27,952 nt of DNA from a virus, in IMG/VR virus record IMGVR_UViG_3300024344_000102, positions 1-27,952 of that record; one strand, given 5' to 3'. This document shows positions 672 through 24,968 of the stretch, piece after piece. The notes below the pieces were generated by a model. It was given only the letters and a program-made list of their open reading frames with translations, did not search any database and was not told the origin of the DNA. The translations under genes and the position numbers were made by a program. The number at the start of each line of letters is the position of its first letter. Within the stretch, counting starts at the first letter, position 1.

Positions 672-697
672 GGGGGTGGGAGACTGCCCCCTCTTTT
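672..697 (+). terminator. Rho-independent terminator after the fibre gene
   Basis: A G-run and a C-run form an 8-bp stem (5 G:C, two T:G wobbles, one G:C) with a GAGA loop, followed by TCTTTT. It sits 9 nt after the stop of the fibre gene and just ahead of the accessory cassette. Its 3' arm contains one copy of the TGCCCCCT octamer discussed in the findings. Some read-through would be needed to transcribe the cassette, since no promoter is visible between it and base 710. Confidence 0.65.
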
Positions 698-709
698 ACA
701 GGAGAGTGT

Positions 710-1255
710 GTGTATTTAAATAAACTAGAACAAGAATTAAGAGACTTGCATATTCCGTTAAAGGAAGATGATGTATTAGATCTTTTACAAATAAGAAAAC
801 GATGGCCTTTAAAATATCCATGGGGTCAATACGGTGTAGAAATATTAAATAGCAGTGGCATATTAGTATTTCCTTTTTATAGTTACGATGGTTACTTTGT
901 CTATGAAGAATGGAAAAAGTATTACGACAACGGTTTTATGACTGTGTTAAATAGTGTACTAGATTTAACAAAAGAATTAAGAGAATTAGATTTAATCTGC
1001 AAAAGACTAGTAGGTGATACAGTAAATGCAAACTTTGTTTTTGCCAAGCCAGGGGGGCAGAAAATAAGTTACACTGTGCATGAACACGACTTTGATGTGG
1101 TCGTTAAACAAATATACGGAACAGGACATTGGTTAGTTAGTAATGAAGAAGTTACACTAAAAGCCAATGATACTTTATTAATTCCTAGATTTACAAGACA
1201 CGAGGTGACTAAAACAACAGATAAAAAATTATCTATTGGTATAACTATTCCGTGA
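710..1255 (+). CDS. Cupin-fold protein, JmjC/Cupin_4-like putative oxygenase
   Basis: 181 aa starting at GTG, with GGAG at 701-704 giving a 5-nt spacer. The C-terminal half shows both cupin motifs: H124-E-H126 followed by Q134 and G137, then P159-x4-H164. The stretch DVVVKQIYGTGHW resembles the 'DVFxxQ..G.K.W' signature of Cupin_4/JmjC-like hydroxylases, but the usual HxD is HxH here. Metal binding is likely; 2-oxoglutarate use is possible but not proven. It is the first gene of a cassette, and its TGA overlaps the GTG of the carbamoyltransferase gene (GTGA), implying coupled translation. A non-enzymatic cupin is the alternative. The N-terminal 100 residues are not recognised. Confidence 0.6.
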   Translation: MYLNKLEQELRDLHIPLKEDDVLDLLQIRKRWPLKYPWGQYGVEILNSSGILVFPFYSYDGYFVYEEWKKYYDNGFMTVLNSVLDLTKELRELDLICKRLVGDTVNANFVFAKPGGQKISYTVHEHDFDVVVKQIYGTGHWLVSNEEVTLKANDTLLIPRFTRHEVTKTTDKKLSIGITIP

Positions 1256-2340
1256 TTTGTTTAGGTATAAATCGTAATCATAACGCTTCTGTTTGTTTAG
1301 TTAAAGATGGTGAAGTCTTACTGCATTTAGAAAACGAAAGATTAACAAAAATAAAATACGACTGTCTTCCAATACATGCTATGTTAGAAATAACTAAGTA
1401 TGTAGATCACATAGACAGATTAGGTATAGCAGCTTTCTCTAAACAAGATATAGATTATTGGGAAGGCAAAGATATATTTACACATCTTGTAGATAACTTA
1501 TCTCGCTCATTCAAAGGTAAACCATTTAAGACTACAGACTTAAGTAGTCATCATCATCAACTTCATGCTGCTTGTAGTTTTTACAACTCAGGTTTTGAAA
1601 ATGCTTTATGTATAGTTATAGATGGTATGGGTTCAGAAGTTTACTTTAAACTAGATGATCAAAGAGTATATGGCAGAGAACACACATCAGTGTTTCAAGG
1701 TTCTTATCCAGCATCTTTTGAATTATTAGAAAAACACGTAAGCTATCCTACAGAAGTAACAGGTAAAGTAGATATAGATAGCAGGATACATGTCAGTAAT
1801 CATATTAGTCCAGCTCAAGCATTTGGTCACAGCTCTGAATTTTTTGGCTTTGCACATATGGACGCTGGCAAACTTATGGGTATGGCTAGTTATGGCAAAC
1901 CTAATGAATGCGTTCCGCCAATATACACAGATGGTAAATTAAATAATAGACTTTTTTATATAGATGACAATCTAACTAAAATGTTTATTAATAATAAAAA
2001 TTATCCATACATGGATTTAGCTAGAGATAACTTTCAAGCTGGAGCAGACTTTGCATATGCCTTACAAACAGAAACTCAAAAACATGTAAAAGAATATGTG
2101 TTAGATTGGGTACAGAAAACCAAGACAAAAAAGGTTTGTTTGAGTGGTGGTTACTTCTTGAATTGCGTAGCCAATTATGATATAATGAAATCGTTACCAG
2201 ATGATGTTTCTTTGTATATAGAACCTTTATCTAACGATGCAGGAACTTCAATGGGAGCAGCTAAGATGTTGTATCATGGTGAAGCAAAAGATATGACAAT
2301 TAGAAAACAGGAGAATATATATTATGGTCGTAACACATAA
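1252..2340 (+). CDS. Carbamoyltransferase, N-terminal (Kae1-like) half, NodU/TobZ family
   Basis: 362 aa, GTG start inside the stop of the preceding gene. The N-terminus (LGINRNHNASVCLVKDG) and following ENERLTKIK match the Carbam_trans_N signature. H101-x3-H105 and D124 (VIDGMG) fit the metal/nucleotide site of the Kae1-like domain. Further family signatures are LMGMASYGKP, LSGGYFLNCVANYD and NDAGTSMGAA. In this family carbamoyl phosphate plus ATP gives carbamoyl-adenylate, and the carbamoyl group is moved to a hydroxyl of the substrate; the substrate here is unknown. The protein ends right after ENIYYG, exactly where intact homologues run into the C-terminal domain. That domain is encoded by the next gene, which overlaps by 17 nt. 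The two products presumably work as one enzyme of about 540 residues. Confidence 0.88.
   Translation: MICLGINRNHNASVCLVKDGEVLLHLENERLTKIKYDCLPIHAMLEITKYVDHIDRLGIAAFSKQDIDYWEGKDIFTHLVDNLSRSFKGKPFKTTDLSSHHHQLHAACSFYNSGFENALCIVIDGMGSEVYFKLDDQRVYGREHTSVFQGSYPASFELLEKHVSYPTEVTGKVDIDSRIHVSNHISPAQAFGHSSEFFGFAHMDAGKLMGMASYGKPNECVPPIYTDGKLNNRLFYIDDNLTKMFINNKNYPYMDLARDNFQAGADFAYALQTETQKHVKEYVLDWVQKTKTKKVCLSGGYFLNCVANYDIMKSLPDDVSLYIEPLSNDAGTSMGAAKMLYHGEAKDMTIRKQENIYYGRNT
2309..2313 (+). promoter_or_regulatory. Shine-Dalgarno for the separate carbamoyltransferase C-terminal gene
   Basis: AGGAG lies inside the 3' end of the N-terminal gene, 10 nt before the ATG at 2324. Its presence argues that the C-terminal half is translated as its own protein and that the split is not just a recent frameshift. 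Confidence 0.55.
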
Positions 2341-2863
2341 AGAAGTTGCACAGTTACTAACAGAAAATAAAATAATTGCTGTGTTTCAGGGGGCATCTGA
2401 ATCAGGCCCAAGAGCATTAGGTAATAGAAGTATATTACACAATCCAGCCAATCCTAATGGTAAAGACAAAGTAAATACAGTAAAGAAACGAGAATGGTTT
2501 AGACCGTTCGCAGGTACAGTTTTGTACGAGTATGCAAAAGATTGGTTTGATCTAGGTAAACAAACTGAGTCACCATTTATGATGTATGCCGTAGATGTAA
2601 TTAAATCTAAACAATCTTTGATACCAGCTATAACACATGTAGATGGTACATGTAGAGTTCAAACTTTGCGAAGAGAGACAAACAAAAACTTTTATGATTT
2701 GATAAAAGAATTTTACAATCTAACACAGATTCCAATATTATTTAATACTTCATTCAACATAGCAGGTTATCCTATTGTACAAACTTTAAAAGATGCAAAG
2801 AATGTAGTTGAACAATCTGCAATAGACTATTTATATCTACCTGAAAGCAAGGAGTTAATATGA
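2324..2863 (+). CDS. Carbamoyltransferase, C-terminal (YrdC-like) half, NodU/TobZ family
   Basis: 179 aa. It matches the Carbam_trans_C domain along most of its length: ESGPRALGNRSIL, VKKREWFRPFA, ITHVDGTCRVQTL, PILFNTSFNIAGYPIVQT and the closing DYLYL. In TobZ-type enzymes this domain supports formation of the carbamoyl-adenylate intermediate that the Kae1-like half then uses. It is read in a different frame from the preceding gene, with its own AGGAG and a 17-nt overlap, so the enzyme is probably two subunits. No slippery heptamer is visible in the overlap, which argues against programmed frameshifting. Its TGA overlaps the next ATG (ATGA). The domain assignment is strong; whether the split exists in the living phage needs read-level confirmation. 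Confidence 0.87.
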   Translation: MVVTHKEVAQLLTENKIIAVFQGASESGPRALGNRSILHNPANPNGKDKVNTVKKREWFRPFAGTVLYEYAKDWFDLGKQTESPFMMYAVDVIKSKQSLIPAITHVDGTCRVQTLRRETNKNFYDLIKEFYNLTQIPILFNTSFNIAGYPIVQTLKDAKNVVEQSAIDYLYLPESKELI

Positions 2864-3432
2864 TATTAGATTATAATTATTGGTATTTTAACCAAGCCAT
2901 GCCAAACAATATTTGTGAAGATATAATAAAAGTAGGCAAAGATAAAAAACTAGATGTAGCATTAGCTGGTGATAATACAGACCCAGCTAAACAAAATTTA
3001 GAAATTAGAAATTCAAACATCTCTTGGATAGATGAAGATTGGTTATATGGTTTAATATTTCCATTCGTACATGAAGCCAATACAAATGCTGGTTGGAATT
3101 TTCAGTACGAAAAATCTGAGCCAGTTCAATTCACAGAATATAAACCAGGACAACATTATGATTGGCATTATGATTTTAATTCAGATGGTGACACAATCAG
3201 AAAGTTATCAGTTGTAATATCTTTAAGCGATCCATCAGAATACGAAGGTGGTAATTTTATGTTAAGTAATGCAAATGTTATTAAACCAGCAGAAGAGTTA
3301 ACTGTTTCTGAATTAAAACCAAAAGGAAGCCTTGTAGTATTTCCTTCATTTCTATGGCACAAAGTTATGCCAGTCACCAAAGGTGTTAGATACTCAGCAG
3401 TGTCATGGTTAAGAGGAAAAAATTTTGTATGA
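2860..3432 (+). CDS. 2OG-Fe(II) oxygenase, prolyl-4-hydroxylase/PKHD-like
   Basis: 190 aa, ATG overlapping the previous stop, AAGGAG 5 nt upstream. The double-stranded beta-helix core shows FTEYKPGQHYDWHYDF with Fe ligands H103 and D105, then LSVVISLSDPSEYEGG, then GSLVVFPSFLWHKVMPV with distal ligand H167, and R177 in KGVRYSAVSW for the 2-oxoglutarate carboxylate. This spacing is typical of the PiuC/PKHD and prolyl-4-hydroxylase group. The family couples oxidative decarboxylation of 2-oxoglutarate to hydroxylation of a protein, nucleic acid or small molecule. It is third in the coupled cassette, directly after the carbamoyltransferase, so it could make the hydroxyl group that is carbamoylated. 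That link is inference. Confidence 0.85.
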   Translation: MILDYNYWYFNQAMPNNICEDIIKVGKDKKLDVALAGDNTDPAKQNLEIRNSNISWIDEDWLYGLIFPFVHEANTNAGWNFQYEKSEPVQFTEYKPGQHYDWHYDFNSDGDTIRKLSVVISLSDPSEYEGGNFMLSNANVIKPAEELTVSELKPKGSLVVFPSFLWHKVMPVTKGVRYSAVSWLRGKNFV

Positions 3433-4034
3433 GTTTTGCAGAAGATAATTATTTAGTTGTACCAAATGCAATAGATAAAAAGTTTGCTAATTTTCTTTAC
3501 CAGTATATGTTACTGCAAAGAAACATTGCTAAATTTAAATTTGAAACTAAATATATAACTTACTTTACTGTAGACCATGGAACGTTTGGTGATCGTCAAG
3601 TACCTCAAACATATGGAATGTATGGTGATCCAGTATTTGATTTACTATTAGAAAAAGATATAAGACCTATATTAGAAAAAGAAAGTAAATTAAATTTATA
3701 TTCTACTTACACATACTACAGAATATATAAAAAAGGTGATGTCTTAAAAAGACATAAAGATAGACCATCATGTAAAATTTCTACAACGATGAACATAGGA
3801 GGAGATGAGTGGCCCATTTATTTAGAACCATCAGGTGAAAAAAATAAGAAAGGCATAGAAGTAAATTTAAATCCAGGTGATATGTTAATGTATAGAGGAT
3901 GTGAGTTAGAACATTGGAGAGATGTCTTTGAAGGAGATGATTGTGCACAAGTATTTTTTCATTTTACCGATGATAAAAATTATATGTATGATACAAGACC
4001 CTTCTTAGGATTACCACAATATTTTAAAAAATGA
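3429..4034 (+). CDS. 2OG-Fe(II) oxygenase-like protein
   Basis: 201 aa from the ATG that overlaps the preceding TGA (ATGA). An in-frame ATG at 3405 exists but lacks a ribosome site and would overlap more, so I prefer 3429. The core has TYYRIYKKGDVLKRHKDRPS with likely Fe ligands H109 and D111, then STTMNIGGDEWPIYLEP, NPGDMLMYRG and EHW with H162 as distal ligand. No arginine sits at the usual position about ten residues after the distal histidine, so the 2OG contact is unclear. Proteins of this shape are common in marine phage genomes; substrates are unknown. It sits mid-cassette and is coupled to the next gene by another ATGA overlap. Confidence 0.75.
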   Translation: MSFAEDNYLVVPNAIDKKFANFLYQYMLLQRNIAKFKFETKYITYFTVDHGTFGDRQVPQTYGMYGDPVFDLLLEKDIRPILEKESKLNLYSTYTYYRIYKKGDVLKRHKDRPSCKISTTMNIGGDEWPIYLEPSGEKNKKGIEVNLNPGDMLMYRGCELEHWRDVFEGDDCAQVFFHFTDDKNYMYDTRPFLGLPQYFKK

Positions 4035-4489
4035 TTAAAGTAACACGTATAGAAAACGACGATCTAATTAATGAGTTGTTAGATTTATTAGAATATTGGA
4101 AAGCTCGAACTCCGATATTAGAAATAAGAAATACAAAAAATAAAACACAAAACGGATATCAGACTGGTAATGTTTTGTATCCTACACTACATTCAAAGTT
4201 AGTTAAAGAATTAAAATTAGAAGAATACAACTTTGATCACATGCATTTGATAGAATACTTTGAAGGAGGTCATCAAGATGTTCACAACCATGAGGAATAC
4301 GAAGATAGATCATTCATACTTTATCTAAATGATTCTGATGGTGATACGGTATTTTACCGAGACAATGAAGTGATAAGCACAAAACCTAAAAGAGGTAAGC
4401 TAGTTGTATTTGATGCTAATATAGAACATGAAGGATTACAATCTACACTAAGTAAACGAGTTGCAGTAGGAGGACTTAAATGGAAGTAA
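4031..4489 (+). CDS. Small 2OG-Fe(II) oxygenase-like protein with variant HxE/HxH site
   Basis: 152 aa. The jelly-roll core is visible: YFEGGHQDVHNHEEYEDRSF, then ILYLND, DTVFYRDN, KRGKLVVFDANIEHEG and SKRVAVGGLKW. The distal histidine is H133 and R143 lies ten residues later, as expected for 2-oxoglutarate binding. The proximal site is unusual: H85-N-H87-E-E89 in place of a plain HxD, so the ligands are H87 and E89 (HxE) or H85 and H87. It is shorter than most of the family (about 180-220 aa). It overlaps the next gene by 10 nt, and the AGGAGG for that gene lies inside this coding region. Confidence 0.7.
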   Translation: MIKVTRIENDDLINELLDLLEYWKARTPILEIRNTKNKTQNGYQTGNVLYPTLHSKLVKELKLEEYNFDHMHLIEYFEGGHQDVHNHEEYEDRSFILYLNDSDGDTVFYRDNEVISTKPKRGKLVVFDANIEHEGLQSTLSKRVAVGGLKWK

Positions 4490-5070
4490 TAACAGAGAAA
4501 TTTTTTGCTACGGGTATTGGATATTCGTTAAACGAAAACAATAAAAATATAAAAGATAAACTAGTAAAGAGATGTTTAGAAATAAAAAATAGAACAAAAG
4601 CAGGTGGCGAAGGTTGGTTAGCTAATAAGACTTATAACACAATACACACAGATTATAATCTACTTGAAGATAAAACATTTGCTGATTTACACAACTGGAT
4701 ATTTGGTAAAGTAGGAGAATATATGGGTAGTAATTATATTAAGTCTAATGTTAAACCAGAGAATGGTTGGTTTAATATATACAATAAAGGAGATTTTCAA
4801 GAGTTTCATTTACATACAGGCTCTGCATTATCTGTTATATACTTCTTGAAGTCACCAAAAGGAGGCAGCAAAGTGTGGTTTAAATCGCCAGTAGAAGATA
4901 TGGTTGAGTTACAATACAATAAAGAAGACCCATATGCTCATGTCACACATGAATCTGTTGAAGGAAAACTGCTAATATTTAGAAGTCATATACACCATGC
5001 AGTTGAACAGCACCCATTAGATGAATCTAGAATAACTTTAGCCTATAATTTTGCAGTCCAGAAGGCTTGA
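4480..5070 (+). CDS. Putative 2OG-Fe(II) oxygenase of the PF13759 / TIGR02466 type
   Basis: 196 aa, with a strong AGGAGG at 4468-4473, 6 nt before the ATG. The sequence ENGWFNIYNKGDFQEFHLHT, then LSVIYFLKSPKGGSKVWF, then GKLLIFRSHIHHAVEQHP and ESRITLAYNF, follows the PF13759 pattern 'W.N.Y.kGdf...H.H....S.vyYl' and 'LlLFpS...H.V.p....eRit..fN'. Candidate Fe ligands are H110, H112 and H172/H173, with R184 for 2-oxoglutarate. It is the last gene of the cassette. A 58-nt gap with a candidate promoter and a palindrome follows before virion genes resume. Confidence 0.82.
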   Translation: MEVITEKFFATGIGYSLNENNKNIKDKLVKRCLEIKNRTKAGGEGWLANKTYNTIHTDYNLLEDKTFADLHNWIFGKVGEYMGSNYIKSNVKPENGWFNIYNKGDFQEFHLHTGSALSVIYFLKSPKGGSKVWFKSPVEDMVELQYNKEDPYAHVTHESVEGKLLIFRSHIHHAVEQHPLDESRITLAYNFAVQKA

Positions 5071-5095
5071 ATATTACGTAAAAACATGGTAAATT
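5067..5095 (+). promoter_or_regulatory. Candidate sigma70-type promoter before the nozzle gene
   Basis: TTGAAT, 17 nt, TAAATT, with TGG directly ahead of the -10 (extended -10). The -35 and the TGG are identical to those of the minus-strand promoter at 22615-22643. The predicted start is near 5102, and the gene at 5129 has GAAGGA at 5118-5123. Each box matches consensus at only 4 of 6 positions, so this is moderate evidence. Confidence 0.4.
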
Positions 5096-5109
5096 AGAAG
5101 GGCTAATTT
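5091..5109. repeat. Palindrome AAATTAG-N5-CTAATTT over the promoter start region
   Basis: Perfect 7-bp arms with a 5-nt spacer, covering most of the -10 box and the predicted start site. It could be an operator, or a weak hairpin ending the accessory cassette; only ATTT follows it, so termination would be poor. Confidence 0.45.
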
Positions 5110-5128: not shown

Positions 5129-7018
5129 ATGCCCTTGGTCAAATTAACAGCTCCTGCGGGAGTTGTAACAGACATTACGGATTATCAAGCAGGATTAAGA
5201 TACACTGATTCAGACAAGATAAGATTTAGAAAAGGTGCTCCTGAAAAAATAGGTGGTTGGGTTAAAAGAGAAGCTTTTAGTTCTACTACTTTATCTGGAG
5301 TATGTAGATCTATCTTCAATCACCGAGATTCTACTGGTAAAAAATTTAATTTTTATGGCACAAGTACACATGTTTTCATGGAATTTGGTGATTCTGTTTA
5401 TGACATTACACCTTTTAGAACAGATACTCAAACTCTGTCAAATCCTTTTACCACAGGATCAGCAGGTAGTAGCACTGTCACAGTCACAGATGCCAATCAC
5501 GGAGTTACCAGCACAACACCTCAATCTAGAGTCGTAATAGAATCTGTAGGATCAGGAACCACAGACGGAGTTACAATTACAGCTGGTGAATATTTTGTAG
5601 AATTTTTAACAGCTAACAGTTATAATATAACAGCAGTCTCAGGGGGCACAGGTAGTATATCAGGCACAGCATCATCAGGATCTACATCAGGTGGTGGCAC
5701 AGTTACAGTAAGATATTTAACAAACAATGGCCCATCAGATGCTACAACAGGATTTGGTTGGGGTGCTGGAACTTATGCATTATCTACATGGGGCACAGCT
5801 AGAACAATCGCAGCTGGTATTGTATTAGAACCTAGAGTATGGTCATTCGATTCTTTTGGTGAAGACGTAATAGCTTCTACAGCAGACGGTACAGACACTA
5901 TATATTATTTTGACATTAGTGCATTCTTGGCAGGCGCTTCTACTTACAGAGGTGTAACTTTATCGCACTATGTAACTAACACATTAAGTGGTGACGCAAC
6001 ACAAATACCAACTAAAACTGGTAGAGTATTAGTATCTACACCAGATAGACACATTTGTGTATTCGGTTGTAATCCACAAGGATCTACAGATTTTGATGAA
6101 ACAACAATTCGTTTCTCTTCACAAGAAAGTTTATCTACATGGAATGCTGATATAACTAATACATCAGGTTCACAAAAACTAGGAACAGGTAGTAGAATAG
6201 TTTCTGCTACAAAAGGTCGTGGTCAGATGTATGTTTGGACTGATAGAGATTTATATAGTATGCAGTTCGTAGGCCCACCATTCACATTTTCTTTCCAACA
6301 ACTCAGTGAGGCGTCAGGTTCTTTGGCACCTAAAGCTCCTGGTATGGTTGAAGGTTTAGCATACTGGATGGGTTTAGATAACTTCTATGTTTACGATGGT
6401 GCAGTTAAAACTTTAGAATGTCCTGTAAGAACTACAGTATTTGATAATATAAATAACATACAAAGAGAAAAAGTTTTTGCCGCAGTCAATACTAAGTTTC
6501 AAGAAGTGTGGTGGTTTTATCCATCAGGAACTAATACAGAAATAACAAACTATGTAATTTATAATTACGTGGATAATACTTGGGCTATAGGTTCTTTAGT
6601 TAGAACTGCTTGGACAGATTCAGATATAGAAGAGTTCCCATTAGCTACAGATTCTTCAGGCAATGTATTTGAGCATGAGAACGGAGTCAATGATAATACA
6701 TCAGCATTAGCAGCTTCAGTTGAAACTGGATTTTTTAATGGTGATGAGAATGGTGATAACTTAATATTTATGAGTAGAATTATACCTGACACTACATTCT
6801 TTTCAGGTTCTCAAATAAAATTTCAAATGAAATCAAAAAGGTATCCTAATGGTAGTGAGATAACCAAAGGGCCTTTTACACTATCATCTTCAACAACCAA
6901 ATTAAATTTACGTTCTAGAGGCAGATCATTTCAAGTAAAATATTTTTCAGATGCAGCAGATACATCTTGGAGACTTGGAACTTGGAGAGCTGAAGGACAA
7001 GCAGACGGAACAAGATAA
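5129..7018 (+). CDS. Tail nozzle / packaged-DNA-stabilisation-like virion protein
   Basis: 629 aa, ATG with GAAGGA 5 nt upstream. The N-terminus (LTDITDYQ-like 'VVTDITDYQAGLRYTDSDK', then IRFRKGAPEKIGGW) and the ending with RGRSFQVKYFSD and WRLGTWRAEGQADG match a protein common in short-tailed marine and soil phages that sits in the tail, comparable in position to P22 gp10 or a T7-type nozzle. The middle is beta-rich: a G/S/T-rich insertion at about residues 105-200, then repeated strands such as GRVLVSTPDRHICVFGCNP and FYVYDGAVKTL, suggesting a propeller-like body. No enzymatic motif is seen. Virion identity is fairly sure; the exact ring is inferred from gene order. Its TAA overlaps the next ATG (TAATG). 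Confidence 0.6.
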   Translation: MPLVKLTAPAGVVTDITDYQAGLRYTDSDKIRFRKGAPEKIGGWVKREAFSSTTLSGVCRSIFNHRDSTGKKFNFYGTSTHVFMEFGDSVYDITPFRTDTQTLSNPFTTGSAGSSTVTVTDANHGVTSTTPQSRVVIESVGSGTTDGVTITAGEYFVEFLTANSYNITAVSGGTGSISGTASSGSTSGGGTVTVRYLTNNGPSDATTGFGWGAGTYALSTWGTARTIAAGIVLEPRVWSFDSFGEDVIASTADGTDTIYYFDISAFLAGASTYRGVTLSHYVTNTLSGDATQIPTKTGRVLVSTPDRHICVFGCNPQGSTDFDETTIRFSSQESLSTWNADITNTSGSQKLGTGSRIVSATKGRGQMYVWTDRDLYSMQFVGPPFTFSFQQLSEASGSLAPKAPGMVEGLAYWMGLDNFYVYDGAVKTLECPVRTTVFDNINNIQREKVFAAVNTKFQEVWWFYPSGTNTEITNYVIYNYVDNTWAIGSLVRTAWTDSDIEEFPLATDSSGNVFEHENGVNDNTSALAASVETGFFNGDENGDNLIFMSRIIPDTTFFSGSQIKFQMKSKRYPNGSEITKGPFTLSSSTTKLNLRSRGRSFQVKYFSDAADTSWRLGTWRAEGQADGTR

Positions 7019-11190: not shown

Positions 11191-14100
11191 ATGGCAGAAG
11201 AAGTAAAGTATATTACATTTGATACACCAGGGGCACCTCGTGTAAAATTTAATGCAGATGCAACGTCTGACTTTATGATGAATTATTTAAAGTCACCTGA
11301 GTTTGCAGAATCCATGGCTAATCAAGGCTATGCTTATATGTATGGACTTGAACCAGTTCCTTTATTTATAGAAGACAATGTAAATGATAATGCATTTACT
11401 TCCTCATTAAAATCTAATTACAATTTTTTAAAACAAGTTGGTGTTGCAATTAAAGCAGCAACCGCTGATGTGTTTGGTGCTAAAGAAACACAGCAAGCAG
11501 CTATGGAAAAATTTAGGCAGTATCAATTAGATGGTGCAGCTTACATGTTTAGAGACACAGGAGAAGTGGATCAAGATGGTAATAAAATATATTTACCAAG
11601 ACCAACTACTGTTGAAGAAGTATTAAACGATCCTAATCAATTAGAAGCATTTGCTAAATACTTAGCTTCTGTTGGCGGTCAGACTTTGGTAACAAGTGCT
11701 CCTATAGCGTTAGCAACTTTAACTGGTGCAGGACTTGGTAGTATAGTTGGGCCTTTAGGAACTGGTGCTGGGGCGACTGGTGGTTTCTTGGCATCTTCTT
11801 TTTTATTTGGTGTAGGAGATATTTACGGAGAACTTATTGATGCAGCTGGCCCTGAAGGAGATCCTGTTGCTATGTACGCTTTTGCTTTAGGTGTTCCATA
11901 CGCTGTAGCAGAACGGTACCTAGGTGCAACAAGAGTATTTTTAAATAAAGTACCAACATTTAAATCAGCTATATTAAAAGAAAAAGGTTTTAAAAAAGCA
12001 TTAAAAGACAAAATTGCTAGCAGAACTTTCTTAAAAGATGTAGCAAAATCTACTCTTGAAACAGGTGTACGAGAAGCAGGGGCGGAAGTTATACAAGAAA
12101 CTCTTAACGTAACTGCTGCAGATTTTTTACAAGAAGGTAAAGGTTTTGAAGATACTTATTTAAATACTGATTATGTAAAACGAATAGGTGAAGCAGGTGC
12201 TGCGGGTTTCTTTGGAGGTTATGGATTTGGTGTTATAAATCCTATAAGAAAAAAATTAAAAGGTTTTTACAGTGGTAAACAATTTTTTAATAACGGTTAT
12301 GTAGCTGATTATGAAGCTAATGAAGAATCATTTAGTGAGGTAGATTTTAATCCAGGTGATAGAGTTAAGATAAAACCACCACCTGTAAATCCAGAATTTA
12401 TTGGCCCTGTTAATCCATTGTTTACTGAACAAGATATATTTACAGCAGAAGGAACAGCAGAAAATAAAGATACAGGAGAAACTGATTTTATATTTAAGTT
12501 TGAAAAACCTATAGGTGTTGATGGAGACGCAAACGTTGCAATCTCTATTCCTAAAACACAAGTACAAAGTAATGTTACAGTTTTAAATCAAGTAGTAGAC
12601 CCATCTAAAAAATCTAAATCTGGTTTTTTATATGATGAAAGTCAAGACATTGATTTACAAAACAATCCAGAAAATAGAACAAAGTATACAAAAGCTAAAC
12701 AAAAATTAATTAGTTTAGGATACATCAAAGATGGTACAGATGCAGAAGTAGATAATTATTTTGACATAACAGGCATAAATAAAGAACAAGAAATAGAAAG
12801 TATTGCAAACGAAATAGAATATCAAAGAGAAGAAGCTAGACAAGCTGAAGAAAAAATAAACGAAGGTGACACAGAAATAGAACCTATAGTTTTAGATAAT
12901 GATTTTGCAACGTTTGATGGTAAAGAAGGGGCAGAACTTAGAGATGCTATTTCTAAAAGATGGTCAGCATACAGAAGAAAACTATTCGTTGAAGATGCGG
13001 ATAATATAAATACAAACTATGTTAGTCCAGAAGATAGAACTGCTTTATCTGATTTAGGATTTAATGGGCCGCTTGGTTTGGATTATGTAAACGATTTAAT
13101 AAATGACACTACGGTAGAGGGTAATACAACTGTAGGTAGAAAAAAATTATCTAAAATAATTAAGAACAAAAGAAGATATGAAGATGTATTTACGCCAGCA
13201 TTAAGAGAAGAAAAAGTTGTAATCGGTGAACAAGTAGAGACAATTAATCCTCTTACTGAATCTGAATATATTAGTATAACTGGAGTTAACTTAGCTGATC
13301 CTACTACCACAGATCCTAACTATGTATTTAATTTAGATCCTATTCAAAGAATAAGAGAAATTAAAATACTACAAGAAAGGTTAAATAAAAATGGTTGGAA
13401 GATTGCAGGATCTCCTTGGTACTCAGGATTTGTAGAAGCTAAAAAAGCAAAGCTTGAACAATATGGAAAGAACAGTATAGAATATAAACGTTGGGCTAAC
13501 ATTGGATATCATTTATTAGAAAATCCTTTTTCACCAAAAGGCACAATATCATATATACCTATTGCCAGTCCTACTGCAATCAGACAAGCTGAAAGAACTA
13601 TACAAGAATTAAAAAACAGTCTAGAGTATAAATCAGAAATACCATCTGTAAAAGCAGTAGCCGATCAAAAAATTGCTGCATTACAAAATTTAATAAATAG
13701 AGCTACACAACAACGTATTAGATTTAATCAATTACTTACATCTTTAAATATAGAACCTATAACAAATTGGGAAAACTTTACAACTGTAAAAGGTTTAAGT
13801 GCTTTAGAGAAAAGATTAAAACAAAAAGAAACTATAACTAAACGAAGAAACATATTTGCTAAATTATCAAAATGGCAAGTAAGTAAAGGCCCTGAGCCTA
13901 GAATAACTTATGCTTTTTATGAAAACGCTTTAAAAGTAGAAGCATATCTTAAACAAGAATTAAAAAGATTAGGTTTAAAAGATGTAGATTTAACCGTAAT
14001 AAAACAATTTTTAGATGACAACGGGGCAGTAGTAGGCAACGCAGGTAGATTTTTAGTAAATCAAAGAGCAATAGAAGTAGCTTTAAAACATCACGATGCT

Positions 14101-17100
14101 ATAATGATAGTGCAAGAAATGAGAGCGGCTGGTAAAGAACCTAATATGTCTGACTTATTGCCATACTATGAAACTACTTTACATCACGAAACAATACATG
14201 CTATGTTTGAATTAGGTTTAGTAACTCCACAAGAAAAAAGAATATTAGACAAAGCAGCAGATGATACGTGGATTGATCAATTCAATGTAAAAAGAGATTA
14301 TGGTAATTTAACTTTAGAACAACAAAGAGAAGAAGCTATTGCACATGCTTTTGCATATTACATGATAGAAGCAAAACATTTTGGCACAGGTATTGGCAGA
14401 GTTTTTAGAAGATTAAAAACATACTTAGTATCTTTAGCAAACGCATTAACTAGAACTGGGTTTAAAACTCCAACAGATATATTCAATGCAATGGACGCTG
14501 GTATTATAGGAAACAGAAACAGAGATAGACAAAACAGAGACGCAACAAAATCTGATGCTTATATTGTAGACAAAGAAGGTAATCCAATACAGTACAATTA
14601 TGAAACAAAATTTTATCCAGACCCAGGGGCTAGACCAGGTGATAATCCTGCCCCCTTTAACAGACAACAAAAAAGAAACGTTGCTAATCAATTAGAAAAA
14701 TTATCTAAAGGTATAGGTGACTATGATAAAGTAGAAAAGCTTGGTGTATGGGCTAGATTTTTTGGTCATGCAAATATAGCCGCAACAAACATACCTTTCT
14801 TTACACCTTTATATGACGCGATTGTAAACATAGATAGATACACTAGAACATTGCAAACAAATTGGTCTTTTCATATGTCAAAAAGATACTATCTTATTAA
14901 GCAAGATCCAACTGTAAATGATAGAATTAATAAAGCACATGACATTGCACAGATGACAGGTGGTGTATATAGACCAAACAGAAACGGACAAATTATATTT
15001 ACAGCACCCGCTGATACAGGAGCTTCTGATTTAGATTTAAAAGCAGGAGAAACTATTATATTAACAGGCGATGCGGCAGACGCTTATATGGATTCTGTTC
15101 TTCTAACAGGAATGGTTAACAAAGAAATGTTAAAAAGTATTATAGTTGGAACAGGTATGGACGAACAATTAATTGATACAATAAAATTATTATCCAAATA
15201 TGGGACAGCAGGTTTACCTGATTTAAATGTTTTAAGTGGAGAACAAATCCAATCATTAGTAGAAAACATGTCATTAGAAGATCTTACATTTTTACGTAAT
15301 CAATTAGCATCTATTGGAGAAGGAAGAGGTGGATATACTGCATACTTAAATGAAACAGATGGTGTTTCTGATGTAGTAAAAGCAATAGAATTATTAGGTT
15401 CTAAAGATAGTGGACTGCAAGCTTTAGTTAATGAAGCAACTAAAATTACTAGACGAGATGCAGCTATGGATTACGCACCATTGATGCGTTACGGAAACTA
15501 TTACATATCTGTAAAAGATCTTGAAGGTAATTTAATATGGTATCAATACTTTGAATCAAAACAAGAAGCAAATGATGCTTACGGTAAACTCAGAATAAAC
15601 TATCCAACAGCTACTGTTACTCCAGCAGCAAGAATAGATGATGCATTTGCATTAGAAAGACAGTTTATATCTGCAACTAAAAAAGACGCATTACCTTCTA
15701 TAGATAGATTAGCACAATATTTATCTACCTCTAGTGCAAAAAATTATAATGAAATATCTAAAGAACTAAGATCCATTATAGATAAAAATAAATATGTAGC
15801 TAACAGTGATCAATTCTACACAGCCAGAGATAAATCAGTTGGACTAGCTGGTGTACCTGGATATAGTGGTGACTATAGTAGAGCATATGCACAGTTTATT
15901 ATGATGGCTTCTGGCACTATTGCAAGAAATAGATTTTTAAGTAAAGCACATAAGGCTAAAAACGATGCAATCAAAGCAGCTCGAGATCCAAAAACAAAAG
16001 ATCCTAACTTAGAAAAAATGGTTAATTCGTTTTTCAGTTATGTAGAAGATCCTGTAAATGAATACGCATCATTTAGAAGATTGGGTTTCTGGTATTACCT
16101 TGGTGGTAATTTATCATCTGCACTATTACAATTTATGAGTGCCGTACAATTTACTGCGCCTACACTTTCAGAGTTTGGCGGTACAGTAAAAACAGGAAAA
16201 GAAATGGGCAAAGCTTTATCAGATACTGCTGCTATGTTGGTCAAGGGGGCAGGTGCATTGACTGGTCTTAGTAAGAGTGGTAAGTTACAATATGAAGATG
16301 CATTTTTAGATTTTTCAGTATTACCTGCTGATGTAAGAGACGCGGTGGCAGAAGCTATTGCGAATGGTACATTAAAACAAGGTATGGCTTTCTTAGAAGG
16401 AGGAATGGCAACAGGTGCAGGAGTAACTGGTTTGAGTATGCAAGAAAGGCAAAAGAATTTTGTAAGAAGTTTTGAAAACACAGTAATCGGTGGAGCATTT
16501 AATACTATGGAATCATTCTCACGTATTACATCTTTCATAGCTGCTTTACGTATATTGAGAAACAACACTAAAGCTTTAGAAAAAGCAGCGTTATATTATA
16601 ATGATGACTATATGTTTCAAACTAGAGTAGAAGAAAATGGTGGAGTTGTTACGGCTGAAATAGTTGCAGAACGATTGATGGTTGATAACTTTGGTGAGTA
16701 TAATAAATTTAACAGACCACAATTTATGAGAGGGATTTTAGCATTACCAGCTTTATTCCAAACTTACATAACACAAATGTTTGGTCGTATGTATAGAAAT
16801 TTAAATCCAACAATTATAAAACGTAAATATGATGAGTATGGAAATAAGAGTGGCTTTAAAATAGAACCTGCTCTTGCTGGCAGAAGTAGAGCACAAAATG
16901 CATTAGGAAGAAAAATCTTAGCAAAACAATTATTAATGATATATTTAACAGCAGGTATGTTTGGATTACCTGGCATAGATGATGGTGTAGATTTAATAGA
17001 ATGGTTAATAAAGAATGTGCCTGGTTTGGATGGTATAGATGTTGACTTAGAAAATGAATTAAGACAGATGATGAGAGAAGCAAACTTTGGTAAAGGCTTT

Positions 17101-17844
17101 ATTGAAATGCACAACAAAGGTGCTTTAAACGCATATTTAGGTATAGATATTAATAGACGTATTGGTTTTGGAAACGTACCATATTCTAACCAATTAAAAG
17201 CTATGGCAAATGTAGCTGGATTTAGAACTAGTGCAAAAGCAGAAGAGTTACTTGGTGCGCCAGGTTCTGTATTCATATCTGCTATTGAAGGTGTTGCAAT
17301 AGATGGTATACAAGAAGGTAACTGGCACAAAGCTGTTCAAAAATCTTTACCAAACTTTATGCAAAATTTTATAAAAGCTTCTTATATGGCAGATAATAGG
17401 TATGTTGAATCTACTTATGGAACTGTAATAACAGATGACATAACTAATCTTGATGTATTAAAACAAGTTTTAGGATTTACTCCTGCGATAGTGGCTAAAG
17501 AAAGACAAGCAGAATTTTTATCTAGAAGATTAGGTGGAGCCAATAGAAATTTAAAAAGAAGATACAATAACAGAATAACATCTGCATTAAAAGAAGTGTA
17601 TAGATCTTCTAAAGATAGAGATTATGTAGCTATGACTGCAGCACAAAAAAGAGTGCAAGAACTTATCAGAGAAATTATAGAAATAAATAGAAAATTACCA
17701 GCACATTTACAATACATACCAGATATAAGTGCGTTACGTGAGCAAGCATTGATGGACATCAATCCTAAGTATAGAAGATATAAGGAGGGTATGAAAACTT
17801 ATATGATGAAAGAAAACATCAGACTAAATTTAGGATTAGATTAA
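11191..17844 (+). CDS. Giant 2217-aa polyvalent internal virion protein with zincin motif
   Basis: A single uninterrupted frame. Residues about 160-210 and 330-350 are hydrophobic and glycine-rich (LVTSAPIALATLTGAGLGSI; GAAGFFGGYGFG), suited to membrane insertion. Residues about 400-980 are charged and helical. At H999-E1000-T-I-H1003 lies an HExxH zinc-peptidase motif (TTLHHETIHAMFE) with E1047/E1048 downstream (REEAIAHAFAYY) as candidate third ligand. The region from about residue 1627 (FRRLGFWYYLGGNLSSALLQ) to 1871 (FNRPQFMRGILALPALFQTY) resembles the C-terminal domains of large polyvalent 'PLxRFG/LPD' proteins. Such phage proteins are packaged in the virion and injected. Likely roles are channel formation plus a peptidase acting on host or virion protein. 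AAGGA lies only 2 nt before the ATG. The stop overlaps the converging gene. Confidence 0.7.
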   Translation: MAEEVKYITFDTPGAPRVKFNADATSDFMMNYLKSPEFAESMANQGYAYMYGLEPVPLFIEDNVNDNAFTSSLKSNYNFLKQVGVAIKAATADVFGAKETQQAAMEKFRQYQLDGAAYMFRDTGEVDQDGNKIYLPRPTTVEEVLNDPNQLEAFAKYLASVGGQTLVTSAPIALATLTGAGLGSIVGPLGTGAGATGGFLASSFLFGVGDIYGELIDAAGPEGDPVAMYAFALGVPYAVAERYLGATRVFLNKVPTFKSAILKEKGFKKALKDKIASRTFLKDVAKSTLETGVREAGAEVIQETLNVTAADFLQEGKGFEDTYLNTDYVKRIGEAGAAGFFGGYGFGVINPIRKKLKGFYSGKQFFNNGYVADYEANEESFSEVDFNPGDRVKIKPPPVNPEFIGPVNPLFTEQDIFTAEGTAENKDTGETDFIFKFEKPIGVDGDANVAISIPKTQVQSNVTVLNQVVDPSKKSKSGFLYDESQDIDLQNNPENRTKYTKAKQKLISLGYIKDGTDAEVDNYFDITGINKEQEIESIANEIEYQREEARQAEEKINEGDTEIEPIVLDNDFATFDGKEGAELRDAISKRWSAYRRKLFVEDADNINTNYVSPEDRTALSDLGFNGPLGLDYVNDLINDTTVEGNTTVGRKKLSKIIKNKRRYEDVFTPALREEKVVIGEQVETINPLTESEYISITGVNLADPTTTDPNYVFNLDPIQRIREIKILQERLNKNGWKIAGSPWYSGFVEAKKAKLEQYGKNSIEYKRWANIGYHLLENPFSPKGTISYIPIASPTAIRQAERTIQELKNSLEYKSEIPSVKAVADQKIAALQNLINRATQQRIRFNQLLTSLNIEPITNWENFTTVKGLSALEKRLKQKETITKRRNIFAKLSKWQVSKGPEPRITYAFYENALKVEAYLKQELKRLGLKDVDLTVIKQFLDDNGAVVGNAGRFLVNQRAIEVALKHHDAIMIVQEMRAAGKEPNMSDLLPYYETTLHHETIHAMFELGLVTPQEKRILDKAADDTWIDQFNVKRDYGNLTLEQQREEAIAHAFAYYMIEAKHFGTGIGRVFRRLKTYLVSLANALTRTGFKTPTDIFNAMDAGIIGNRNRDRQNRDATKSDAYIVDKEGNPIQYNYETKFYPDPGARPGDNPAPFNRQQKRNVANQLEKLSKGIGDYDKVEKLGVWARFFGHANIAATNIPFFTPLYDAIVNIDRYTRTLQTNWSFHMSKRYYLIKQDPTVNDRINKAHDIAQMTGGVYRPNRNGQIIFTAPADTGASDLDLKAGETIILTGDAADAYMDSVLLTGMVNKEMLKSIIVGTGMDEQLIDTIKLLSKYGTAGLPDLNVLSGEQIQSLVENMSLEDLTFLRNQLASIGEGRGGYTAYLNETDGVSDVVKAIELLGSKDSGLQALVNEATKITRRDAAMDYAPLMRYGNYYISVKDLEGNLIWYQYFESKQEANDAYGKLRINYPTATVTPAARIDDAFALERQFISATKKDALPSIDRLAQYLSTSSAKNYNEISKELRSIIDKNKYVANSDQFYTARDKSVGLAGVPGYSGDYSRAYAQFIMMASGTIARNRFLSKAHKAKNDAIKAARDPKTKDPNLEKMVNSFFSYVEDPVNEYASFRRLGFWYYLGGNLSSALLQFMSAVQFTAPTLSEFGGTVKTGKEMGKALSDTAAMLVKGAGALTGLSKSGKLQYEDAFLDFSVLPADVRDAVAEAIANGTLKQGMAFLEGGMATGAGVTGLSMQERQKNFVRSFENTVIGGAFNTMESFSRITSFIAALRILRNNTKALEKAALYYNDDYMFQTRVEENGGVVTAEIVAERLMVDNFGEYNKFNRPQFMRGILALPALFQTYITQMFGRMYRNLNPTIIKRKYDEYGNKSGFKIEPALAGRSRAQNALGRKILAKQLLMIYLTAGMFGLPGIDDGVDLIEWLIKNVPGLDGIDVDLENELRQMMREANFGKGFIEMHNKGALNAYLGIDINRRIGFGNVPYSNQLKAMANVAGFRTSAKAEELLGAPGSVFISAIEGVAIDGIQEGNWHKAVQKSLPNFMQNFIKASYMADNRYVESTYGTVITDDITNLDVLKQVLGFTPAIVAKERQAEFLSRRLGGANRNLKRRYNNRITSALKEVYRSSKDRDYVAMTAAQKRVQELIREIIEINRKLPAHLQYIPDISALREQALMDINPKYRRYKEGMKTYMMKENIRLNLGLD

Positions 17845-24081: not shown

Positions 24082-24379
24082 CATACTCCCTTCCAAATCC
24101 GTCTACTAATTTACCTACCCTGTTTGGATCACCAGAAGCTAGAACTCTAAAGTGTTTTACAAAATGACCGTTGGGTAAGTCATTATACAACCATGTATCT
24201 TTTGTCATCTTGTAATTTATGTTACGTATCATAGCTTGACAATCTAAATATTCTCTGTGATATTTTGCTTTTTCTTTTGGGTCAACACGCATCGAGCGAG
24301 ATCTAGAGTATGCTTCTTTACTACGCTTTTGATACTCCTTGATATACTTTTTTAATTCGTCTTGTGTAAAATCAATCAT
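24059..24379 (-). CDS. Hypothetical 106-aa helical protein
   Basis: ATG 24379 overlaps the stop of the oxygenase gene by 8 nt. The N-terminal 60 residues are strongly helical and charged (DELKKYIKEYQKRSKEAYSR; KYHREYLDCQAMIRN). The C-terminal 40 residues look like a small compact domain (HFVKHFRVLASGDPNRVG). No family is recognised. It is part of the oxygenase-phosphoesterase transcript. Confidence 0.55.
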   Translation of the reverse strand: MIDFTQDELKKYIKEYQKRSKEAYSRSRSMRVDPKEKAKYHREYLDCQAMIRNINYKMTKDTWLYNDLPNGHFVKHFRVLASGDPNRVGKLVDGFGREYDVPRKRN

Positions 24380-24968
24380 TAAATGAATACCATCCTGTTA
24401 TAATATACTTCTCGTTAGTTTGACTAATCTGCCCCGCATGGGCATGTGTCCATTCCGCAGGCCATATCAATGTTAAACCTTTTTCTGCAGGTGCTGTAAA
24501 TGATTGGCTGGGAAACTTTGTACCTCCGCCTGGCACGTCATTAAGATATGTCATGAATACTAAAATTCTTTTAGACATTTTAACACCAGTTCTTTCGGCA
24601 TGTAATCTTTTGAAACCTTGGGTCGGGGCATAGTATTGTAGATTAAACGTTTCGTTTATATTAAAAGGATCTAGCATTTCATTACAATCGGGATACTCTC
24701 TGAGGTATGCTGTTAAAACTCTTTGTTGCCATACCCTGTATTGATTGATCGGATAGTCTCCGTTGTTTTGTGAGATACCTATTTCAGTTGACTCTTTATA
24801 ACTAGGATCAATAGCAAAACCTTTTTCAAAGTGTTGATTATAAACCACACCTTCGACTTGATTCTGTTTATTGTCGTGATACCATTCTATTAACTTGTCA
24901 CAGATATCATGTGGTATATACCAACCACCAATAAACTTATCTTTACTTATACCTTCAAATTTTTTCAC
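24372..24968 (-). CDS. 2OG-Fe(II) oxygenase (prolyl-4-hydroxylase-like), sixth oxygenase-type gene
   Basis: 198 aa, GTG start with AGGAG 6 nt upstream. The core has YYAPTQGFKRLHAERTG with H123-A-E125 as an HxE metal site, then RILVFMTYLNDVPGGGTKFP, then GLTLIWPAEWTHAHAGQ with H175 or H177, and K187 (EKYIITGWYSF) for 2-oxoglutarate. This pattern is common in marine phage oxygenases. HxE in place of HxD is unusual but keeps an acidic ligand. It lies far from the oxygenase cassette, on the other strand, behind nrdB and downstream of its own promoter and a terminator hairpin. The substrate is unknown. Confidence 0.83.
   Translation of the reverse strand: MKKFEGISKDKFIGGWYIPHDICDKLIEWYHDNKQNQVEGVVYNQHFEKGFAIDPSYKESTEIGISQNNGDYPINQYRVWQQRVLTAYLREYPDCNEMLDPFNINETFNLQYYAPTQGFKRLHAERTGVKMSKRILVFMTYLNDVPGGGTKFPSQSFTAPAEKGLTLIWPAEWTHAHAGQISQTNEKYIITGWYSFND

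Follow-up and report, generated by a model that had tools for sequence, protein, structure and literature searches.

A conserved tail-side gene cassette of a marine podovirus combines 2-oxoglutarate oxygenase-family genes with a two-gene O-carbamoyltransferase

Introduction

Genes for oxygenases dependent on 2-oxoglutarate (2OG) and Fe(II) rank among the most abundant genes without an explanation that ocean phages carry, and they are mostly assigned to DNA repair or general metabolism. The IMG/VR virus record IMGVR_UViG_3300024344_000102, analysed here in its entirety (27,952 bases, hereafter the window), raises the question of what such genes may do when packed among tail genes. Between a tail-fibre-like gene and a gene for a nozzle-like protein lies a cassette of seven genes (positions 710–5070), encoding a "cupin", the N- and C-terminal halves of a NodU/TobZ-type O-carbamoyltransferase (CTn and CTc) and four members of the 2OG-Fe(II) oxygenase superfamily (oxA to oxD). 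A preliminary description of this DNA had suggested that the genes encode a hydroxylate-then-carbamoylate pathway as one unit. With a probability of about 0.4, we read the locus as an accessory late-region cassette encoding sequential hydroxylation and O-carbamoylation, the most likely substrate being a virion protein. The window belongs to a marine podovirus related to the HTVC023P-type pelagiphages and to roseophages CRP-901/902; a Megablast search of its first 20 kb against phage records returned no match.

Conservation of the cassette

Relatives of the cassette were sought by using the nozzle-like protein, CTn and the cupin as queries against viral contigs. The identical gene order was recovered in eight other IMG/VR contigs, five of them with all seven genes and three in which the cassette is ended by contig edges. 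Pairwise dN/dS was 0.01–0.11 for CTn and CTc, 0.05–0.24 for the remaining five cassette genes and 0.04–0.06 for the nozzle gene. As the same order is found in eight other contigs and dN/dS stays at about 0.01–0.24, the conservation is far beyond chance; the cassette is real, conserved and under purifying selection.

No cassette is present in phages with a nozzle protein 58–68% identical to that of the window (L020 and L022–L028), where fibre and small genes sit immediately 5′ of the nozzle gene. In being inserted between conserved genes and missing from these relatives, the cassette resembles a moron. The expectation that the set occurs together in related phages holds for this clade, in which it is fixed, but its components are also found apart. 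Fibre homologues at 83–100% occur in cassette-clade contigs and two short contig fragments only; a search for homologues outside the clade, made to follow co-variation of cassette and fibre, found none and is uninformative in that respect.

Linkage of carbamoyltransferase and oxygenase genes

The pairing of carbamoyltransferase and 2OG genes recurs in divergent phages. The carbamoyltransferase sample comprised the 80 phage loci most like that of the window; as in all neighbourhood samples, these are the nearest hits and partly non-independent. A 2OG gene was found within 8–9 kb of the carbamoyltransferase in 37 of the 80 phage loci and in 1 of 80 cellular loci. Moreover, a 2OG gene occupied 28 of 164 positions immediately beside a carbamoyltransferase, compared with 55 of 841 positions farther off (p = 4e-5). 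Overlapping arrays in which the two gene types alternate (carbamoyltransferase-2OG-carbamoyltransferase-2OG) were identified in L047, L062, L063 and L081. L060, L068, L083, L091 and L115 have both types alongside nozzle and/or collar-like fibre genes, and both are also present in L085.

Two further observations were made in these clusters. A conserved 228-aa protein (phrog_7084, weak DUF6065) lies among the 2OG genes of independent carbamoyltransferase clusters (L060:4975-5661, L083:3235-3921, L091:9377-10063 and L056:1585-2271), and the cluster of L068 includes, at 5798-6518, open reading frames (ORFs) that by eye resemble a small kinase and a nucleotidyltransferase.

The 2OG genes were also followed from the side of oxB. 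In the 80 nearest oxB loci, other 2OG genes were present in 76, and the nozzle gene followed immediately behind oxB in 38; the two are separated by oxC and oxD in the window. 2OG genes plus oxB are a module widespread among marine podoviruses, placed immediately before the nozzle gene; carbamoyltransferase and cupin appear as add-ons to it. Cupin homologues occur at other loci without a carbamoyltransferase. Genes of oxA and oxB type lie in the same region of HTVC023P and 023Pt_psg01 and within the structural region of HTVC033P, and HTVC027P has 2OG genes in the same region on the opposite strand. Groups of 2OG-Fe(II) oxygenases in pelagiphages have been reported before (Wittmers et al. 2022, PMC9599517).

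The two-gene carbamoyltransferase

Both Pfam domains of the carbamoyltransferase score far over their cut-offs (Carbam_trans_N 84.1 bits, cut-off 24; Carbam_trans_C 208.2 bits, cut-off 27). In GdmN the iron ligands are H133, H137, D156 and D333 (PMC9633730). Residues H101, H105, D124 and D329 of CTn align with these four and are invariant in seven phage sequences. CTc is a separate gene in another frame than CTn, with its own AGGAG and a 17-nt overlap, and this junction is the same in all nine contigs of the clade. A frameshift or assembly error as cause of the split was ruled out by the identical junction in the eight other assemblies and the low dN/dS of both halves. The two-part carbamoyltransferase of the preliminary description is thereby borne out, with both domains in successive genes and all four ligands kept. 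CTn and CTc constitute a two-gene class III carbamoyltransferase, counted here as a split form, with domains and active site intact and activity predicted.

Fusion is the common state elsewhere, at least one fused enzyme being encoded in 69 of the 80 phage loci and none in 11, while all 80 of the nearest cellular loci have the fused form. Well-supported branches of a C-domain tree indicate at least two origins of splits with the N-terminal half first and at least two of splits with the C-terminal half first. The 17-nt-overlap arrangement probably arose more than once, because it is also found in L060, L068 and L083. Repeated splitting and permutation of the order show that the carbamoyltransferase domains can work, or at least persist, as separate proteins.

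The oxygenases and the JmjC-shaped protein

The count of four 2OG oxygenases stands, with oxB included by its predicted fold. Their sites had been described as distinct. Direct reading gave HYD for oxA and HKD for oxB, both classical, whereas oxC has HNH at the HxD position and oxD has HLH, neither with the acidic ligand of the canonical 2-His-1-carboxylate HxD/E...H. Family profiles are still over cut-off for these two, and oxC and oxD are homologous family members whose chemistry may differ. Domain or fold together with HxD...H places oxA and oxB in the 2OG-Fe(II) superfamily. For oxA, PKHD-type NCBIfam models match, and the relatives in the PDB are PiuC and P4H.

The case of oxB required structure prediction, which had been proposed for all the oxygenases and here gave a 2OG dioxygenase fold for this one. 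No Pfam family matched oxB, the only matches being PHROGs labelled "ferrochelatase". The AlphaFold2 model (pLDDT 92.4) retrieved 2OG dioxygenase-superfamily proteins at all of the top 50 Foldseek positions (MysH, proline hydroxylases and HygX), with no ferrochelatase (chelatase) fold among these 50. In addition, 35 oxB homologues are matched by 2OG profiles over the same residues, and HxD plus the distal H are kept in 116 of 117. A "ferrochelatase" identity of oxB (phrog_2954) was rejected on these grounds. The label given to the oxB-type family by PHROGs, and by PMC9599517 with a reading as heme chemistry, is very probably wrong, since the predicted model matches 2OG dioxygenases, 2OG profiles cover the homologues and HxD...H is kept. 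The predicted fold would remove the annotation behind the iron-metabolism interpretation. It should be noted that phrog_3531, also labelled "ferrochelatase", aligns at its N part with oxB and at its C part with oxA and looks like a fusion of two oxygenases. A fifth 2OG-Fe(II) oxygenase gene (24372-24968, − strand; phrog_61, PF13640 over cut-off) lies outside the cassette beside ribonucleotide reductase genes. A defence function was considered and discarded; only CRISPR-associated 2OG models matched, and no defence system did.

The "cupin" call was apt in so far as a cupin/JmjC_2-like domain is discernible, with Cupin_2 and JmjC_2 matches below the Pfam cut-off, but the product is better termed a JmjC-shaped protein. 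A sequence search of the PDB gave no reliable hit, and the best Foldseek hits of the AlphaFold2 model (pLDDT 90.5) were NO66, MINA53 and YcfD (TMq 0.55-0.73). The metal triad reads H124-E-H126...H164, without an acidic ligand; both H of HxH and the distal H are among the family invariants. At +13, which we take to be the usual place of the 2OG-binding Lys/Arg in the JmjC family, it has G139.

Proposed pathway and alternative explanations

Gene content, conserved order, catalytic residues, two protein folds and repeated linkage beside tail genes were computed, and from them we infer chemistry, step order, late expression and substrate. Two to four 2OG-Fe(II) oxygenases (the classical oxA and oxB, and oxC and oxD with the altered HxH) would hydroxylate the substrate, assisted by the JmjC-shaped metalloprotein. 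CTc and CTn would then make carbamoyl-AMP from carbamoyl phosphate and ATP, and the iron site of CTn would pass the carbamoyl group to the hydroxyl. The target would first of all be the adjacent glycine-rich fibre tip, modified while it is made late in infection. A virion protein appears to fit best as substrate candidate because of the fibre/nozzle position and the hydroxylase relatives: the solved structures nearest to oxA and to the cupin model come from hydroxylase families that include protein hydroxylases. The main text of a pelagiphage transcriptome paper holds no usable timing for 2OG genes.

Several results weigh against this reading. None of the 80 oxB loci contains a carbamoyltransferase, and as most oxB/2OG modules lack one, the oxygenases would seem to have a job of their own, to which coupling with the carbamoyltransferase is not obligatory. 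The notion of a single hydroxylate-then-carbamoylate unit is accordingly retained for the recurring adjacency of the two gene types, rare in cells, but not for the seven genes as an obligate set. Dependence on 2OG is uncertain for oxC, oxD and the cupin, whose motifs have no classical acidic ligand. The contrast between phage and cellular loci is affected by oxygenase profiles trained on phage proteins, and the abundance of 2OG genes in these phages raises the number of neighbours expected by chance. Lastly, a cellular relative of the carbamoyltransferase lies in an O-antigen-type cluster of SAR11 and favours a glycan substrate.

That last point belongs to an alternative in which a sugar hydroxyl of a host-surface glycan (O-antigen or capsule) is O-carbamoylated and sugar or lipid groups are oxidised, so that the receptor is altered, possibly to block superinfection or to keep progeny off debris. 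NodU-type enzymes act on sugar-containing acceptors, and the Pelagibacteraceae (SAR11) relative, L354, is surrounded by glycosyltransferases, epimerases, a polysaccharide-synthesis gene and an O-antigen ligase. We nevertheless consider a glycan substrate rather unlikely, as the cassette neither contains nor adjoins a glycosyltransferase or sugar-nucleotide gene, the resemblance of oxA and oxB is to hydroxylases of amino acids/proteins or of small molecules, and the location among virion genes suggests late expression. It is similarly doubtful that the genes are unlinked accessories in a permissive slot, gathered without a common pathway because insertions cluster at the fibre/nozzle boundary. 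The slot is indeed highly variable in relatives (from no to several 2OG genes, small genes and fibre genes), and homologues of the cupin and of oxB are found without a carbamoyltransferase; yet all junctions overlap, the order is kept across the clade, and the adjacency of carbamoyltransferase and 2OG genes reappears in divergent phages, including the overlapping alternating arrays.

DNA hypermodification, i.e. carbamoylation of a hydroxymethylated pyrimidine as by the carbamoyltransferases acting on 5-hydroxymethyldeoxycytidine (5hmdC; PMC8670742), appears very improbable. Homologous enzymes do have 5hmdC as substrate where the phage pairs them with a thymidylate-synthase-like enzyme (PMC8670742), and another clade of phage carbamoyltransferases sits behind ThyX. 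However, PF00303 (ThyA) and PF02511 (ThyX) had no match on four cassette-clade contigs, records that may be fragments; one of these, of 37.7 kb, holds head, terminase, DNA polymerase and primase genes and the start of a ribonucleotide reductase gene like the one with which the window ends. The window ORFs that were searched likewise include no ThyA/ThyX gene, no search having been aimed at 5-methylcytosine hydroxylation of the TET/JBP type. DNA, earlier named as one candidate substrate, is weakened by this absence of ThyA/ThyX from the sampled contigs. The window enzyme also falls outside the ThyX-linked groups of the C-domain tree, and the cassette lies among tail genes rather than replication genes.

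The ThyX-linked set deserves mention in its own right. A carbamoyltransferase follows directly behind ThyX in L048, L051, L052, L059, L078, L110, L112 and S-RIM44 (L013); several are split, with the C-half gene preceding the N-half gene, and the set has the look of the reported hydroxymethylase-carbamoyltransferase modification of DNA in a ThyX-based form.

Returning to a virion protein as substrate, the packing of 2OG genes with a carbamoyltransferase by tail genes in divergent phages would assign to these oxygenases a likely substrate and a concrete chemistry (+16 Da followed by +43 Da). A bolder form of the proposal, to which we give little credence at present, is a system for post-translational modification of receptor-binding fibres in marine phages, in which amino-acid hydroxylation is followed by O-carbamoylation, the genes being plug-in sets beside fibre/nozzle genes and the carbamoyltransferase having two order-permutable subunits.

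Layout and borders of the cassette

The coordinates are collected in Table 1. The overlap of the seven + strand genes at every junction (4, 17, 4, 4, 4 and 10 nt) was reproduced, as was the position between a phrog_2295-type fibre gene ending at 662 and the phrog_3287 nozzle gene at 5129. The fibre assignment uses a full-length homologue (L032:6751-7800, 349 aa), which matches phrog_2295 and, weakly, phrog_863 "tail fiber assembly". For oxB the ATG at 3429 was taken as start; the longest ORF begins at 3405.

The bounding terminator was confirmed as a hairpin kept at the identical position in the eight other contigs; a scan of the region found two terminator-like hairpins against 1.3 expected, the only site at a cassette border being the upstream one, with none found 3′ of the cassette. 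Conversely, a promoter described before the nozzle gene was not recovered, since shuffled sequences gave promoter matches as often as the region did, and position 5129 is preceded by none. The palindrome described there is present but partly lost in one relative (L017).

Table 1 Features of the cassette and its borders
Feature	Position	Strand	Basis
3′ end of glycine-rich tail-fibre-like gene, 5′ part beyond contig end	1..662	+	via complete homologue
Intrinsic-terminator-like hairpin in fibre gene/cassette gap	672..691	+	8-pair stem then TCTTTT
"Cupin" gene, phrog_29157	710..1255	+	JmjC-ribosomal-oxygenase-like predicted fold; HxH...H site H124, H126, H164
CTn, N-terminal (Kae1-like) half of NodU/TobZ-type O-carbamoyltransferase	1252..2340	+	Carbam_trans_N 1.6e-23; phrog_1601 N part
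CTc, C-terminal (YrdC-like) half of carbamoyltransferase	2324..2863	+	Carbam_trans_C 8e-62; phrog_20469, phrog_1601 C part
oxA, 2OG-Fe(II) oxygenase, PKHD/prolyl-4-hydroxylase type	2860..3432	+	2OG-FeII_Oxy_3 2.3e-18
oxB, 2OG-Fe(II) dioxygenase fold (predicted), HKD...H	3429..4034	+	AlphaFold2 + Foldseek; phrog_2954
oxC, 2OG oxygenase-family protein, HNH at usual HxD position	4031..4489	+	2OG-FeII_Oxy_3 6.6e-8, over cut-off
oxD, 2OG-FeII_Oxy_5 family, HLH motif	4480..5070	+	PF13759 8.3e-14; TIGR02466 over cut-off; PDB 2rg4
AT-rich 7-bp palindrome AAATTAG/CTAATTT 5′ of nozzle gene	5091..5109	.	direct reading
Nozzle/"stabilization protein"-like virion gene, right border of slot	5129..7018	+	phrog_3287 2.1e-72; tblastn to podovirus tail/stabilization proteins

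Elsewhere in the window, positions 11191-17844 (+) encode a 2217-aa protein, presumably a large component of the virion, that matches no Pfam family and, in PHROGs, only groups of unknown function. In a sister phage, the stretch L283:1456-4597 has its DNA polymerase matches divided between two ORFs of 358 and 509 aa that are separated by a short one, which points to a polymerase that is split or to the insertion of an element.

Comparison with known systems

The components of the cassette are of known kinds. New are the gene combination, its recurrence on the tail side, the two-gene carbamoyltransferase and the corrected "ferrochelatase"; the proposed mechanism is plausible. Like the class III O-carbamoyltransferases NodU, TobZ and GdmN, the window enzyme has both domains and all four iron ligands; unlike these single polypeptides, it is made as two, from overlapping genes in different frames. 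The phage 5hmdC carbamoyltransferase found by MetaGPA (PMC8670742) has the same Pfam domains, but the corresponding thymidylate-synthase-like partner (dCMP hydroxymethylase) was not found on the four cassette contigs, and the context in the window is tail-side. The cupin protein has its predicted fold in common with the ribosomal oxygenases NO66, MINA53 and YcfD, and departs from the HxD/E...H site and Lys/Arg 2OG ligand of that JmjC group in having HxH for HxD and Gly at the 2OG-binding position.

With the auxiliary metabolic genes of HTVC023P-type pelagiphages the window shares the fibre/nozzle slot, with 2OG and oxB genes 5′ of the nozzle gene, and homologous oxA/oxB-type genes. In contrast to the window, no carbamoyltransferase was found in those slots, nor is one mentioned for them in PMC9599517. 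The window is further comparable to cyanophage S-CAM8, to which MS29 is likened by tblastn hits only: two tail-fibre genes of S-CAM8 flank a carbamoyltransferase, a homologue of oxB and five more genes of 2OG type. In this T4-like myovirus the carbamoyltransferase is fused, on the opposite strand and without a cupin, whereas in the window it is split and accompanied by one.

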